From Rhodothermaceae bacterium (GTDB lineage Bacteria; Bacteroidota; Rhodothermia; Rhodothermales; Bin80), in the NCBI GenBank assembly GCA_009841335.1, contig VXLY01000031.1, positions 1 through 64,000 of the forward strand: DNA of 64,000 nucleotides, written 5' to 3'. Position 1 is the first letter of the stretch; each line of letters starts with the position of its first letter. Positions 1-55,807 of the stretch are shown here, piece after piece. The notes beneath the pieces were generated by a model. The model did not search any database, was not told where the DNA came from, and worked only from the letters and a program-made list of their open reading frames with translations. The position numbers were made by a program, and so were the translations under genes.

Positions 1-2
1 TT

Positions 3-818
3 AAGCCGGATGGCTTTGATGCATCCCAGCGGTATCCGATGATGGTGTACTTCTACGAAAAAATGTCCGATGGCTTGCATCAGTATCGTGCACCCTCCAC
101 TGCGCGCTCGTCTATCAGCTTTTCGTTTTACGTCAGCCGGGGCTACCTCGTGTTCGTGCCCGATATTCCGTACAAGGTGGGGTATCCTGGAGAAAGTGCG
201 TTGAATGCCGTAGTACCAGGAGTCACTATGCTCATCAACCAGGGGTTCGTGGATCCTGCCCGGGTAGGTGTGCAGGGACATAGCTGGGGCGGTTACCAGA
301 TAGCATACATGATCACCGAGTCCGACCTGTTCGCAGCGGCGGAAGCCGGCGCACCTGTAGTCAACATGACAAGCGCGTATGGTGGAATACGCTGGGCAAG
401 TGGGATGAGCCGCATGTTCCAATACGAGCGTACGCAGAGCCGAATAGGTGGATCGCTCTGGGAAACACCACTCAGGTATCTGGACAATTCTCCACTTTTT
501 CAGGCAGACAAAGTGAAAACGCCCGTCCTTATGCTCCACAACGATGATGACGGTGCAGTGCCGTGGTATCAGGGAATCGAGTTTTTTGTTGCATTACGTC
601 GTCTGAGCAAACCGGTCTGGATGCTGAATTACAACGGGGAGGGACATGGCCTTTCCAAGTACGCCAATAGAAGGGATTTTGCTATCCGTATGCAGCAGTT
701 TTTCGATTATTACCTGATGGATGCGCCTGCTCCCATATGGATGACCGAGGGAATTCCGGCGACCATGAAAGGAGAAACGCTGGGCTTGGAGCCTGCTGCC
801 GATCAGGAACAGGAGTAG
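3..818 (+). CDS. S9 family peptidase, C-terminal part (5' end outside window)
   Basis: The open frame enters from the left edge of the window, so only the catalytic alpha/beta-hydrolase domain of a prolyl oligopeptidase-family (S9) serine peptidase is present. The nucleophile motif GHSWGG (Ser codon at 282-284), the acid in LMLHNDDDGAVPW and the His in GEGHGLSK appear in the order expected for the Ser-Asp-His triad. Such enzymes remove dipeptides from, or cleave, short peptides, usually in the periplasm of Bacteroidota relatives. The missing upstream part should carry the beta-propeller and probably a signal peptide. The tail after the His motif is longer than the minimal domain. It converges on the DUF4097 gene. 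A second S9 gene lies at 51872-53875. Confidence 0.9.
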   Translation, partial: KPDGFDASQRYPMMVYFYEKMSDGLHQYRAPSTARSSISFSFYVSRGYLVFVPDIPYKVGYPGESALNAVVPGVTMLINQGFVDPARVGVQGHSWGGYQIAYMITESDLFAAAEAGAPVVNMTSAYGGIRWASGMSRMFQYERTQSRIGGSLWETPLRYLDNSPLFQADKVKTPVLMLHNDDDGAVPWYQGIEFFVALRRLSKPVWMLNYNGEGHGLSKYANRRDFAIRMQQFFDYYLMDAPAPIWMTEGIPATMKGETLGLEPAADQEQE

Positions 819-1014: not shown

Positions 1015-3417
1015 TCATTGGGCCAAAAACAATTGTAACGGGAACGGACGGAAAATTGACGTGGCACTTGAGATGCTGAAGTATTCGAGGGGCAGCAAAA
1101 TAATAGCTCCATTGGTTGCTCGCACATGAACCAGTGGTGCGCCCTGGTGCATTGCCATCCGCAGTTCGGGTTCCGTACCGGGATTAACGATTCCCCATCC
1201 GCCCAATTCCAGGCTTTTCCCGGCCAGGTCAAGCGTTGCTGCAAAATTCTCGGGTGCAGATAGAGTCACATCCCCATTTGAGGACTGGATCCGGACATTC
1301 TGGATTTTCTCCACTCCCACATTAACATCACCATTTGAGGACTTGAGCATAAGGCTTCCTATGATTTGACCGATTTGTATATCACCATTTCTCAGGTTCA
1401 CGTCCGCGTGGGCCTCAATTAACCCGGTTTCAATGTCTCCTTTACTTGTCGCTTTTGCTGTCACGAATGCACCCTTGAGGTGCTCGGCAATGATGTTTCC
1501 CTCAGAGGTCTGCAACGAGATTTCACGGGATGTAGCCACATTCTCCAAAGTGATACTTCCATTGCTGGTTTTGGCAAACACAGACTCTCCTTCCAGGCGT
1601 TGTGCACTAATATTTCCGCTGGAAGATTTCAAATCAACTTGACCATTAGCGGAAACAAGACCAATTGCCATATTGCCCTGGGTCGTCCTGACGGATGCAA
1701 GTTCTGCTTCAATCCGGTCCGCGGAGATATTGCCACCTGTTGTTCTGATTTCAAGGTCATTGCCAGCCACCAGTCCAAGGATCATAGGACCATTGACGGT
1801 GCGGACGTTCAGGGACGAAGCATCAATCTGATTTGTGATGATACTTCCGTCTGAGGACTGTAACGTGAGGGTCTCACTGGAAGCGATATTCTGCACCTTG
1901 ATATTGCCATTAATAGATTTTACTATCACGGATGCACCTTGAATCTGCTGTGCATTGATGTTACCGTTATTGGAGGTTCGTATTTCGGCATGATCACTGG
2001 AGGCGATTCCCAGGTGCAGACTGCCATTAGTTGTTTTAACGATCAGGGACGAAGCATCAATCTGGTTTGCCGTGATGCTTCCGCCTGAGGATTGTAGATC
2101 GAGCGCCTCGCTGGAGGTGATTTTGTCCACCTTGATGTTACCATTATTGGAGGTTCGTATGTCGGCATTATCGCTGGTGGCGACTCCAAGATTCAGATCG
2201 CCATTGACTGCTTTGACGATCAGGGACGAAGCATCAATCTGGTTTGCCGCGATACTTCCGACTGAGGATCGTAACGTGAGCTCGTCTCTGGAGATGATGT
2301 TGTCAACCTTGATGTTGCCCTTACTGGAGGTACGTATTTCGGCTTTGTTGCTGGAGGCGGCACCCAAATTCAGATCACCATTGACTGCTTTAACAATCAG
2401 AGACGAAGCATCAACTTGCTTTGTTGTGATATTTCCATCTGAGGTCTGAAGAAGGAGGCTGGTTTTGGATGTCAGTTCTCCAATCTCTATATCCCCATTG
2501 GTTGTTCTGGCTATAACGGACTCGCCTTGCGTTTTTTCTGAAGTGATATTGCCGTCAGATGTTCGAATCTCGGCATGATCACTGGATACGACTCCTAGAT
2601 TCAAATCGCCATTGAATGCTTTGACGGTCAAAGACGAAGCGTCAATTTGCTTGGTTGTGATACTTCCATCAGAGGTCTGAAGAAGGAGGCTGGTTTTGGA
2701 TGTTATTTCTCCAATTTCTATATCGCCATTGGTTGTTCTGGCTATAACGGACTCGCCTTGCAATTTTTCCGAGGTGATACTGCCGTCCGATGTTCGAACT
2801 TCGGCATGATCACTGTCAAGGAATCCAACAGCAACATTGCCATTAACCGTTTTGGCAGTCACAGATGTGCCCCTGAGTTCCTTTGCGGTAATATCTCCAT
2901 CCGAACTCTGCAGTTTGATTGGACCCCCGGATATCGAATTGACCGTGATGCTTCCGTCCGTAGACCTGACTTCGGCACCGGCCTTGAGTTCATTAATCCG
3001 CACTTCTCCGCTAGAGGTACGGAGCCTTGGGTGTACGGTTGCCGGCATGGCAATGGTCACGTCAATGACAGGCGGGTCATTTCGCCAGCCGCGAGTGTCC
3101 AAGTTCTTCCAATCTGGGGCCGAGAGCAATCGCAAGGTCCCCTCTTCCATGACTACGTCAAAGCGTTGCCTGAGGTAGTAATCGTCTACTCTCTGTTGCT
3201 TTTTGCCGGTAACCACAACCTGAATCTCAACATCGAATCGGTCCGATGTTTGAATTGTGAGGTTAGCGTTTGGCACGTTAACGATCAGTTCGGAAACTGC
3301 ACTGGCGGCAAACTGCTGTTTGATGGGAGTGATTTCGACTTGAGCACTGGCAGGAACAACAATTGCAAATGCCAGGAATAGTGTGGCGGCCAGGATGTGT
3401 TTCGGGAAGGATCTCAT
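1015..3417 (-). CDS. Very large secreted DUF4097-type beta-helix repeat protein
   Basis: 800 residues starting with a signal peptide (hydrophobic core LAATLFLAFAIVV, cleavage near ASAQ). After a beta-rich N-terminal part of about 110 residues, nearly the whole protein is a string of turns of about 20 residues built on patterns such as 'SSDGSIT', 'TSNGNI' and 'AVNGDLNLG'. This is the DUF4097 (putative adhesin) style of parallel beta-helix. Family members are commonly near 250-350 residues, so this one is strongly expanded. Higher-order units of 59 and 77-78 residues repeat an 'IDASSLIVK' segment. No catalytic motif was seen. The likely location is the periplasm or cell surface; the role is unknown, and surface adhesion or structural scaffolding is only inferred from the fold. 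It is transcribed alone, with a hairpin terminator downstream. Confidence 0.85.
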   Translation of the reverse strand: MRSFPKHILAATLFLAFAIVVPASAQVEITPIKQQFAASAVSELIVNVPNANLTIQTSDRFDVEIQVVVTGKKQQRVDDYYLRQRFDVVMEEGTLRLLSAPDWKNLDTRGWRNDPPVIDVTIAMPATVHPRLRTSSGEVRINELKAGAEVRSTDGSITVNSISGGPIKLQSSDGDITAKELRGTSVTAKTVNGNVAVGFLDSDHAEVRTSDGSITSEKLQGESVIARTTNGDIEIGEITSKTSLLLQTSDGSITTKQIDASSLTVKAFNGDLNLGVVSSDHAEIRTSDGNITSEKTQGESVIARTTNGDIEIGELTSKTSLLLQTSDGNITTKQVDASSLIVKAVNGDLNLGAASSNKAEIRTSSKGNIKVDNIISRDELTLRSSVGSIAANQIDASSLIVKAVNGDLNLGVATSDNADIRTSNNGNIKVDKITSSEALDLQSSGGSITANQIDASSLIVKTTNGSLHLGIASSDHAEIRTSNNGNINAQQIQGASVIVKSINGNIKVQNIASSETLTLQSSDGSIITNQIDASSLNVRTVNGPMILGLVAGNDLEIRTTGGNISADRIEAELASVRTTQGNMAIGLVSANGQVDLKSSSGNISAQRLEGESVFAKTSNGSITLENVATSREISLQTSEGNIIAEHLKGAFVTAKATSKGDIETGLIEAHADVNLRNGDIQIGQIIGSLMLKSSNGDVNVGVEKIQNVRIQSSNGDVTLSAPENFAATLDLAGKSLELGGWGIVNPGTEPELRMAMHQGAPLVHVRATNGAIILLPLEYFSISSATSIFRPFPLQLFLAQ
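1811..2650 (-). repeat. In-frame tandem repeats inside the DUF4097 gene
   Basis: The plus-strand marker GACGAAG, within the codons for IDASSL, recurs at 1814, 2048, 2225, 2402 and 2633, that is at intervals of 234, 177, 177 and 231 bases, all multiples of three. Neighbouring copies share long nearly identical DNA stretches, which indicates recent tandem duplication of 59- and 77-78-codon blocks rather than ancient divergence. Confidence 0.8.
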
Positions 3418-4261
3418 GTACTCCGGGTTTTAAATCTCGTGGTCTCAGACCTGGAGCGAAACCACAAGATGTCTTATTGTTCCTTGCCTGAACTCACCCT
3501 TCCGGTTTCTCCTACGGGCGAGCTTCGAACTTAACCGTGCGTCAAACTTGTTGGCATTAGTCATGGGGTTCGACCGGTACGGAACCCTGCCAAAGAAGTC
3601 TTGGCCAGTCACCCACCGGCCAATAGACAATCTCATGTGCTATCCCAAGTCTGCTTGATCCGTTAAATGACACAACAAAACTGTTGTCAACGTAATTGTT
3701 GTGAAATTTTGAATTTATCCCTCTTGCTATTGCGAAGTCGTTCTGATGTGTCGTTGGAGGCAGTGCAACCCAAACATCAATTCTAGATTTCGTATCCCTG
3801 CTCAGATAGTCCCTCAGGTAGACCTAATTCCCGGTATATGAAAAACCAGCTTTCCCCATAATTGACGGAGGAGCCCTTACTTGATCCCGTAAAATGATGT
3901 CCACTCTCTCCCTCCTCCAAATCGTTAAAATTTGCTTGCGCTAGTTGCTATACTCATAGGCGTCCTCATTCTCCTGGCCAGAGTCCAGCCTACGGAAGCT
4001 AGACGAGAGGACACCCCGAGTTGGAGGCTCCATATTCGCAAGCACTGAGTGTATATGGACAACAGTCAAATGTTAATTCGAATGGATTGTTACCGATCTA
4101 TTGTTAAGGCGATGATGACGAGTGTACTAGGAAGCAGGAAGGCACCTGTCTCAACACTAAGATTGGTTACGCAATGGATAGTCTCCCGCAGGTGCAGTGT
4201 GGGGAATATTGTTTAATCCAACCTAGCTAGGCATATTTTTCAATCAAGTCACCGTCACGAA
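3418..4261. other. 844-bp intergenic region without a convincing gene
   Basis: No frame with a start, length and composition like the neighbours was found. A minus-strand 63-codon frame (3445-3636) contains 'WVTGQDFFGRV', faintly like the start of an AAA-type ATPase segment, but it lacks a P-loop and is too short to call. The region contains the inverted-repeat cluster at 3662-3703. The divergent neighbours (starts at 3417 and 4262) must both take their promoters from here. Confidence 0.6.
3662..3703 (-). promoter_or_regulatory. Nested inverted repeats with promoter-like boxes
   Basis: CACAAC (3671-3676) and GTTGTG (3698-3703) form outer arms. ACAACA-AAAC-TGTTGT forms an inner perfect hairpin, and CAAC/GTTG repeats once more beside it. 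On the minus strand TTGACA (3690-3685) is followed after 17 bases by TTTAAC, a passable sigma70-like pair aimed at the DUF4097 gene about 245 bp away. Bacteroidota promoters usually differ from this form, so the repeats may instead be an operator. The pattern is seen; the function is inferred. Confidence 0.25.
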
Positions 4262-54103: not shown

Positions 54104-55807
54104 ATGCAAAGGACGTGCATCCTCATTCTCTCTGGAATATTTATCGGTGCAGCTCCTGCCTGGAGCCAGCCCCAGGTCACTCTCGAACATGCATTCCCAA
54201 ACCTTTTCTTTAATCGGCCGGTGGATATGCAGCACTTCGGAGAACAGCTCTTTGTAGTCGAGCAACAAGGCGTTATTTGGACTTTTGAAAACAAACAGGA
54301 TGTAACCGATCGTCACAGATTCCTGGACATACGGGACCGTGTTCGAGCAGTTAATAACGAGGAAGGTTTGCTCGGGCTGGCCTTCCATCCGGACCACGCC
54401 GTTAACGGGTACTTTTTTGTCTACTACACTGCCTCAAACCCAAGACGGAGCGTGGTCGCACGTTTCAGTTTACTCGCTGGTGATCCGAACCGGGCCGATT
54501 CGAACAGCGGAACCGTGATCCTCGAGGTAAATCAGCCCGCTGGCAACCACAACGGCGGACAATTGGGCTTTGGGCCCGAAGGTGCTCTGTACATTGCCTT
54601 CGGTGATGGGGGTGGTGCAAACGACCAATTCCGAAACGGTCAGAATACACGCTCGCTTCTGGGTACTATCTCCAGAATCAATGTGGATGATGTTCCCTAC
54701 ACAATCCCGCCGGATAACCCTTTTGCCAGCGGGGCTGCCGGTCTGCCGGAAATCTTTGCCTGGGGACTTCGTAATCCATGGAGATTTGCTTTCGATTTCA
54801 AGACTGGCGTTTTTTACGCCGCAGATGTAGGACAAAACACGATCGAAGAAATCGATATCATCGAAAATGGCAAGAATTATGGGTGGCCGATTATGGAAGG
54901 AACGCAGTGTTTCCGGCCGCGTGCGAACTGTGACCAAAGTGGCCTGGTGCTGCCGATTTTTGAATATGATCACTCAAACGGTCCTGCCTCCGTAACGGGC
55001 GGATACGTTTATCGCGGCCCTGGGGTACCGGATCTTACAGGCTGGTATGTTTTCGGAGACTATGTCGACGGTCGGTTTTGGGGACTGCTCTACGACGGAA
55101 ATACCCTGCTGGAAAGCGCATTACTAGAAGACACTTTCCTGTCTCCTCTTTCTTTCGGCATCGATCACCAAAGCGAAGTCTTTATGCTCGCCGGAAATGG
55201 GCGGATTTACAGGTTCTCGGCAACAGGCGGCTCATTGGGATTTGAATCCTTTGTTGAGCCTCTTCAATTCACGCTGGGTGCCCCGATCCCAACCACTACG
55301 CTGCCCGCTGCCCGAGGGGGAAGTGGATCATTTAGCTACTCGCTTTCCCCCTCTCTTCCCGCGGGGCTGTCCTTTGATGCTTCAACGCGCATATTACAGG
55401 GAACAGCCACTGTCCTCGCAGACACGACTACCTATACGCTCCATGCCGTAGATACCAATGGTTTGCAGGGAGCACTACAGTTCGAACTCTCCGTACACGA
55501 ATCACTAAGCAATGAACTCCCAGATGTGTTACCAGGCTTTATTCTTCATGGTCACTTTCCCAGTCCCTCGTCCGGTGACACGCGCATAGTTTTTGACCTG
55601 CCTGAGCGAGCCAGCGTATCGGTAGAGTTACATGACTTGCTTGGGCGCCGCATTACTACCATACCCCCGCAAATCATGGCTCCGGCAATTCAACAATCCG
55701 TCCTTGTACCCACAAGTACGCTCCCTGGAGGAGTGTACTTGTACCGTGTCATCGTTACCAAGCAGAATGCGTTGTTGACTGCTCACGGGAAACTTCTGGT
55801 TCAGTGA
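54104..55807 (+). CDS. T9SS-exported PQQ-type sugar (glucose/sorbosone) dehydrogenase
   Basis: 567 residues with a signal peptide ('LILSGIFIGAAPAWSQ'). The six-bladed GSDH propeller (about 25-375) has 'EEGLLGLAFHPD', 'AGNHNGGQLGFGPEGALYIA', 'GLRNPWRFAFD', 'GQNTIEEIDII' and 'NYGWPIMEG'. A short Ig-like domain (about 385-470, 'GSFSYSLSPSLPAGLSFD') follows, then a C-terminal type A T9SS sorting domain ('FPSPSSGDTRIVFDLPERAS', 'VELHDLLGRRI', 'LPGGVYLYRVIV'). It should oxidise sugars outside the cell using PQQ; PQQ genes are not in the window. The sorting domain shows the genome encodes a type IX secretion system. Confidence 0.92.
   Translation: MQRTCILILSGIFIGAAPAWSQPQVTLEHAFPNLFFNRPVDMQHFGEQLFVVEQQGVIWTFENKQDVTDRHRFLDIRDRVRAVNNEEGLLGLAFHPDHAVNGYFFVYYTASNPRRSVVARFSLLAGDPNRADSNSGTVILEVNQPAGNHNGGQLGFGPEGALYIAFGDGGGANDQFRNGQNTRSLLGTISRINVDDVPYTIPPDNPFASGAAGLPEIFAWGLRNPWRFAFDFKTGVFYAADVGQNTIEEIDIIENGKNYGWPIMEGTQCFRPRANCDQSGLVLPIFEYDHSNGPASVTGGYVYRGPGVPDLTGWYVFGDYVDGRFWGLLYDGNTLLESALLEDTFLSPLSFGIDHQSEVFMLAGNGRIYRFSATGGSLGFESFVEPLQFTLGAPIPTTTLPAARGGSGSFSYSLSPSLPAGLSFDASTRILQGTATVLADTTTYTLHAVDTNGLQGALQFELSVHESLSNELPDVLPGFILHGHFPSPSSGDTRIVFDLPERASVSVELHDLLGRRITTIPPQIMAPAIQQSVLVPTSTLPGGVYLYRVIVTKQNALLTAHGKLLVQ

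Follow-up and report, generated by a model that had tools for sequence, protein, structure and literature searches.

The Toastrack/DUF4097 family (PF13349), which Pfam describes with a model of 247 positions, has a place in the PSP response according to the accessible part of the paper devoted to it (PMC11237479), where fusions to membrane domains are stressed, the sheets are proposed as docking surfaces for envelope-stress complexes and the solved structures 4QRK and 4OPW are named. DUF4097-type repeats also occur in LiaX and LiaG, and the LiaX literature, in its accessible part (PMC11601895), describes the release of the N-terminal part of LiaX from the cell. Long beta-helix arrangements are likewise found in the secreted adhesins EtpA and HMW1. 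At the level of abstracts, we found no mention of variation in rung number within the DUF4097/Toastrack family, which is not proof of its absence.

The window analyzed here, i.e., the whole stretch of 64,000 nucleotides from a Rhodothermaceae bacterium (contig VXLY01000031.1; genome G000 below), carries near its start a much longer member of this family. The features of the locus are as follows.

1015-3417, reverse strand: long Toastrack/DUF4097 gene, 800 aa, ATG start (open reading frame; Pfam PF13349, E = 7.9e-51, in six stretches)
3340-3417, reverse strand: probable Sec signal peptide, aa 1-26, cut after ASA (or before or after Q26), read by eye
3034-3339, reverse strand: N-terminal cap region, aa 27-128, ahead of the rungs (rung map; low-to-middling model confidence)
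1243-3033, reverse strand: predicted solenoid, a 31-rung chain with 18-20 aa per rung, about aa 129-725 (motif search and AlphaFold)
2327-2788, reverse strand: pair of 231-bp four-rung copies, 2327-2557 and 2558-2788 (TRF, register; dS 0.49; codon-shuffle control)
1955-2485, reverse strand: 177-bp three-rung copies, 1955-2131, 2132-2308 and 2309-2485, the last only 69% alike (TRF, register; dS 0.29 for the two blocks compared; codon-shuffle control)
1018-1242, reverse strand: C-terminal tail, aa 726-800, without a recognised anchor or sorting domain (Pfam and NCBIfam scans; model confidence low from residue 733)
1-818, forward strand: neighbouring 3' part of an S9 peptidase gene, convergent and cut by the contig end (Pfam PF00326, E = 1.4e-26; the contig starts at window base 1)

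The first-pass annotation of this DNA had described the gene as more than twice the usual family size, and this was borne out. The product scored 173.2 bits against PF13349, above the curated cutoff of 22.9, and its approximately 31 rungs and 800 aa compare with 247 profile positions, with a 349-aa relative in the same genome (G000:C106:3370-4416, the short copy below; 40% identity over query positions 1-292) and with a third DUF4097 frame of 303 aa (G000:C98:6164-6850). The short copy, which remains at the alaS locus, is less than half as long as the window protein, as whole turns of the rod have been gained in the latter. Unlike the membrane-domain fusions stressed in the accessible part of PMC11237479, the window protein is free-standing with a probable signal peptide; after removal of the signal its net charge is -22. 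DUF4097 was present in 108 of the 114 genomes of the order and, among the matches listed from these 114 genomes, frames (stop to stop) of at least 600 aa comprised, by eye, seven orthologues and one multidomain protein. The latter, a frame of about 1056-1060 aa in G019 (L052:1634-4804), was rejected as a second giant, as by eye its DUF4097 part is short and is joined to HEAT-like repeats and to a membrane-peptidase-like part that we take to resemble M56/BlaR1. The last residues of the window protein (window 1015-1080) are unlike the PPPVP-type ending of five orthologues, and the window and G009 share a different tail. An antisense open reading frame of 244 aa (window 2647-3381, forward strand) mirrors the repeats and is probably a mere by-product of composition.

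A motif search placed successive turns (mostly NG, DG or SG) 18-20 aa apart in a single chain of 31 rungs, and the strongest self-match in several orthologues was found at 77-78 aa, i.e., four rungs. Judged from the sequence, the 59-aa unit may represent the four-rung unit minus one rung, removed at a turn; at one place where the 59-aa unit may have lost a rung, G003 still has 19 more aa. The AlphaFold2 model of the 800-aa protein, built from a seven-sequence alignment, had a mean pLDDT of 81.9 and a pTM of 0.74 (503 of 800 residues at 90 or above), and showed strands and turns throughout the middle; most blocks between about aa 150 and 670 had a pLDDT above 90. The protein is thus confidently predicted to be one continuous repetitive beta-solenoid with DG/NG-turn rungs, as in Toastrack, and with an N-terminal cap modelled at low confidence; structure prediction in this way bears out the repetitive beta-helix that had been proposed.

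When this model was compared to the PDB, Foldseek gave no match at E ≤ 0.001; searches of solved structures with phmmer gave two chance-level chains only (E = 0.3 and 0.56), and a profile search gave none at E ≤ 0.01. A second-look structural ranking put long beta-helices first, with EtpA at Z 22.0 (rmsd 4.5, 334 aligned) and the HMW1 secretion domain at Z 20.3 (rmsd 2.2, 230 aligned), while the solved structure 3JX8 reached Z 10.9 (rmsd 4.4, 177 aligned). The model of the short copy (pLDDT 90.6) matched 19 PDB chains at E ≤ 0.001 in a Foldseek-type search, with solved Toastrack-type structures among them, the first being 4QRK (E = 7.3e-8), with 3LYC, 3LJY, 3PET, 4OPW (E = 3e-6) and 3JX8 among the later matches. 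A further match of the short-copy model (L033:3370-4416) is to one chain of the Dot/Icm core complex of Legionella (7muc_AM; Z 17.6, rmsd 3.6, 261 aligned).

It had also been suggested that the protein is a surface rod and perhaps an adhesin, in which case it would reach the surface by an unrecognised route and bind host or substrate. The rank of the long secreted beta-helices EtpA and HMW1 at the top of the second-look matches, the name "putative adhesin" given by depositors to solved relatives of the short copy, and the variable length of the protein all point this way. However, the likeness to adhesins is one of arrangement, not function, and a common beta-helix arrangement does not show function; the alignments with EtpA and HMW1 had 13-16% identity, and Pfam finds no secretion domain in the window protein. 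Moreover, neither a lipobox nor a C-terminal membrane segment was seen by eye and no sorting domain or anchor was found in the Pfam and NCBIfam scans, even though the T9SS sorting tail (PF18962) is matched 69 times in this genome at E ≤ 0.001, never at the window gene. The proposal of a surface adhesin was therefore not supported, and we regard such a role as unlikely. Elsewhere in the window (55556-55765), a weak T9SS-tail match of 22.3 bits (cutoff 27) lies at the end of a 571-aa frame.

The in-frame DNA steps of 177 and 231-234 bp that had been noted within the gene were confirmed. TRF reported two arrays, both with 0% indels, one of 177 bp at 1955-2414 (2.6 copies, 83% matches, score 619) and one of 231 bp at 2368-2815 (1.9 copies, 88% matches, score 728), and the members of the 177-nt family, placed in register, were spaced by 234, 177, 177 and 231. 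As a control we shuffled synonymous codons of the window gene 500 times, keeping the protein and the codon usage. Identity at spacing 177 was 0.836, compared to a shuffle maximum of 0.729, and identity at spacing 231 was 0.870, compared to a shuffle maximum of 0.753, so that none of the 500 shuffles reached the observed value in either case; at 117 bp, identity within the window gene did not differ significantly from the shuffles (88 of 500). As identity at 177 and 231 bp exceeds that in all codon shuffles, these repeats reflect duplications at the DNA level and not the constraint of the fold alone, and constraint on the protein mimicking duplication is rejected for both spacings. This control, together with the copies found in relatives, upholds lengthening by in-frame tandem duplication. 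Every spacing is divisible by 3 and corresponds to an integral number of rungs of 18-20 aa; as such steps keep the frame, they change length and would not switch the gene off, and the phase variation suggested for the gene is accordingly not supported as far as frame-shifting repeats are concerned.

That the repeats were created in assembly is conceivable, as all genomes compared are fragmented and the orthologue in G008 carries an exact repeat of 227 bp, which assembly could have affected. In the window gene, however, the longest exact repeat is 36 bp, which makes a short-read artefact improbable, the gene is a single open frame, and it pairs block for block with that of G009; we thus consider an artefact possible for the repeat in G008 and very unlikely for the window gene.

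The first-pass annotation had called the duplications recent, which did not hold for the window gene. The dS between its own copies was 0.49 for the 231-bp pair and 0.29 for the 177-bp pair, compared to whole-gene dS values of 0.16 and 0.45 between the window gene and its orthologues in G009 and G003, respectively. In a tree of the repeat blocks, the five blocks of the window gene paired with five of the six of G009, and window blocks 3-5 paired also with those of G003 and G001; blocks 1-2 did not correspond one to one in the latter two genomes, possibly through inter-block exchange or a separate duplication. The dS values and the block tree indicate that growth of the window gene is old, the 177-bp duplication being common to three relatives and the 231-bp pair dating from about the time of the split from G003, and they reject recent, species-specific growth of the window copy.

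Growth is fresh in the relatives G009 and G008 and not in the window gene. G009 carries a 117-bp insert of two rungs (39 aa), which is absent from the other six aligned sequences and has a dS of 0.11 between copies, and TCAATGGCGAT (NGD turn codons) occurs at both of its outer ends as well as between the copies. G003 has an extra 19-aa rung as compared to the window gene. In G008, a stretch of 231 bp is duplicated with a single mismatch, and the ends of this duplication are not mapped to a turn with certainty. Similarity between the window gene and that of G009 is uneven: alignment columns 101-400 (the 5' half) are about 88-92% identical (dS 0.31), columns 401-800 are 97-99% identical (dS 0.06), and upstream positions 3900-4122 are 87% identical. 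The mosaic over window 2200-4120 suggests, as far as sequence comparison goes, recombination inside the gene. The relation of G000 to G009 is not simply that of two strains: although they are 97-99% identical in three regions of the window contig, identity is only 90.5% over the first 1500 nt of alaS and 88.5% over the short copy.

The distribution of the gene was investigated in 10 genomes of the genus including G000, one genome per species and all fragmented assemblies. Nine of the 10 had a match at E ≤ 1e-10, and the long gene was found in eight, intact in seven and truncated in G001, where the orthologue (L031:5997-7749) is without the signal peptide and the first rungs, ends early and looks truncated. 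The seven intact orthologues have 31 (G000), 33 (G009), 32 (G003), 25 (G002), 23 (G004), 23 (G005) and 20 (G008) rungs, one double step being scored as two rungs in each of the last three. The expected variability in length was thus observed, at the level of species; repeat number is not identical in this between-species comparison, nor is the predicted fold a non-repetitive one. G007 has the short copy and no long gene; G006 had no match at E ≤ 1e-10, and a family search found there a DUF4097 frame of 310 aa about 1.5 kb from alaS. Among the matches listed from 394 genomes of the phylum, with two candidates per genome scored, E ≤ 1e-40 was reached by six genomes, which belong without exception to this genus, one of the 170 genera covered.

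These differences in length could be tolerated drift, in which repeats recombine as repeats, the fold absorbs rungs, and length is neither selected nor used. Rungs have been gained or lost by one, two or four in different lineages, the short paralogues of G002, G008 and G011 were likewise seen by eye to differ in rungs, and the long gene is missing or truncated in three of 10 genomes (G006, G007 and G001). On the other hand, at least 20 rungs are kept in all seven intact orthologues, all pairs compared have a dN well below their dS, in the repeat region too, and this genus alone reached E ≤ 1e-40 among the matches listed from the phylum. We therefore hold drift to be possible, if doubtful.

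The neighbourhood bears on the origin of the gene. Genes were named by Pfam for one representative each of alaS, thiolase and pump and for two of the peptidase, and the rest by BLAST cluster. The order is alaS, short DUF4097 gene and thiolase in G014, and alaS, short, long and thiolase in G002 and G008, with the same neighbours in G004 and G005 (by eye). In G011, alaS and the short copy were seen and the stretch has no thiolase, in G007 another gene separates the short copy from thiolase, and in the stretch from G012 neither alaS nor thiolase was seen. The long gene adjoins an S9 peptidase gene in G000 and G009 and lies about 3.5 kb from one in G003, and the short copy adjoins alaS in G000, G009 and G001 (the G003 contig starts there) and is flanked on the opposite side by an AcrB-type pump in G000, G009 and G003; in G000, thiolase follows after about another 10 kb. 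Long and short copies form separate groups in a tree built from the N-terminal 130 aa, the deepest node of which is weakly supported (0.13). The long gene is probably a tandem duplicate of its short (approx. 350 aa) alaS-side neighbour that was then lengthened; the simplest history has a tandem duplication, lengthening of one copy and its relocation in one lineage, that of the window, and G007 and G006 either lost the long gene or branched off earlier.

The same neighbours speak to a role as an envelope-stress sensor or regulator like LiaX/LiaG, in which extra rungs would provide more binding surface. The shared DUF4097-type repeats, the NCBIfam matches below cutoff, the PSP context of Toastrack and the LiaX literature cited above (each as far as accessible) agree with such a role. 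However, the scores are far below both curated cutoffs (LiaG, 122.4 bits compared to 285; LiaX, 112.6 compared to 350), so that the protein is not assigned to either equivalog, and the genes nearby are alaS, thiolase and an AcrB-type pump or S9 peptidase, with no PspC, two-component or Lia-type gene recognised among those scanned. A LiaX/LiaG-like function is, in our view, improbable.

We favor, with a probability of about one half, the explanation that the window gene arose by tandem duplication from a short gene for an exported Toastrack protein and has grown, in this genus, into a long and rigid periplasmic beta-solenoid rod. The Sec signal read by eye, and the failure to find a T9SS tail in a genome that has many, agree with this location. 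As every rung would have an Asn/Asp-Gly turn, its codons would provide a short, near-identical stretch of DNA once per rung, and recombination or slippage between such stretches would add or remove whole rungs in frame and leave a protein that can still fold. The turn codons would thus act as the recombination register, as suggested by the one set of breakpoints read in detail, that of G009. A beta-solenoid rises about 0.48 nm per rung, and 31 rungs would therefore span about 15 nm. A rod of this length, with long flat faces for partners, might serve as an envelope spacer or docking scaffold. Several observations weigh against parts of this explanation: the 800-aa model had no Foldseek match at E ≤ 0.001, and its best second-look matches are secreted adhesins and toxins, which counts against a scaffold; none of the nearby genes examined was recognised as a partner in a stress response; and the accessible part of PMC11237479 predicts Toastrack to be intracellular, which speaks against an exported form. 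More speculatively, the rod could be an envelope ruler tuned in length, in which recombination at turn codons sets a whole number of rungs that tracks some envelope dimension in each species, although we consider this rather unlikely.

Overall, stages in the growth of a beta-solenoid can be seen within a single genus: the sister copy is short, the orthologues have 20-33 rungs, and there are fresh duplications for which a breakpoint could be read. These genes offer a clear example of modular protein growth and a natural series in which to study how a repeat protein can become longer and still fold correctly, and whether the length of a rod is useful in the bacterial envelope.
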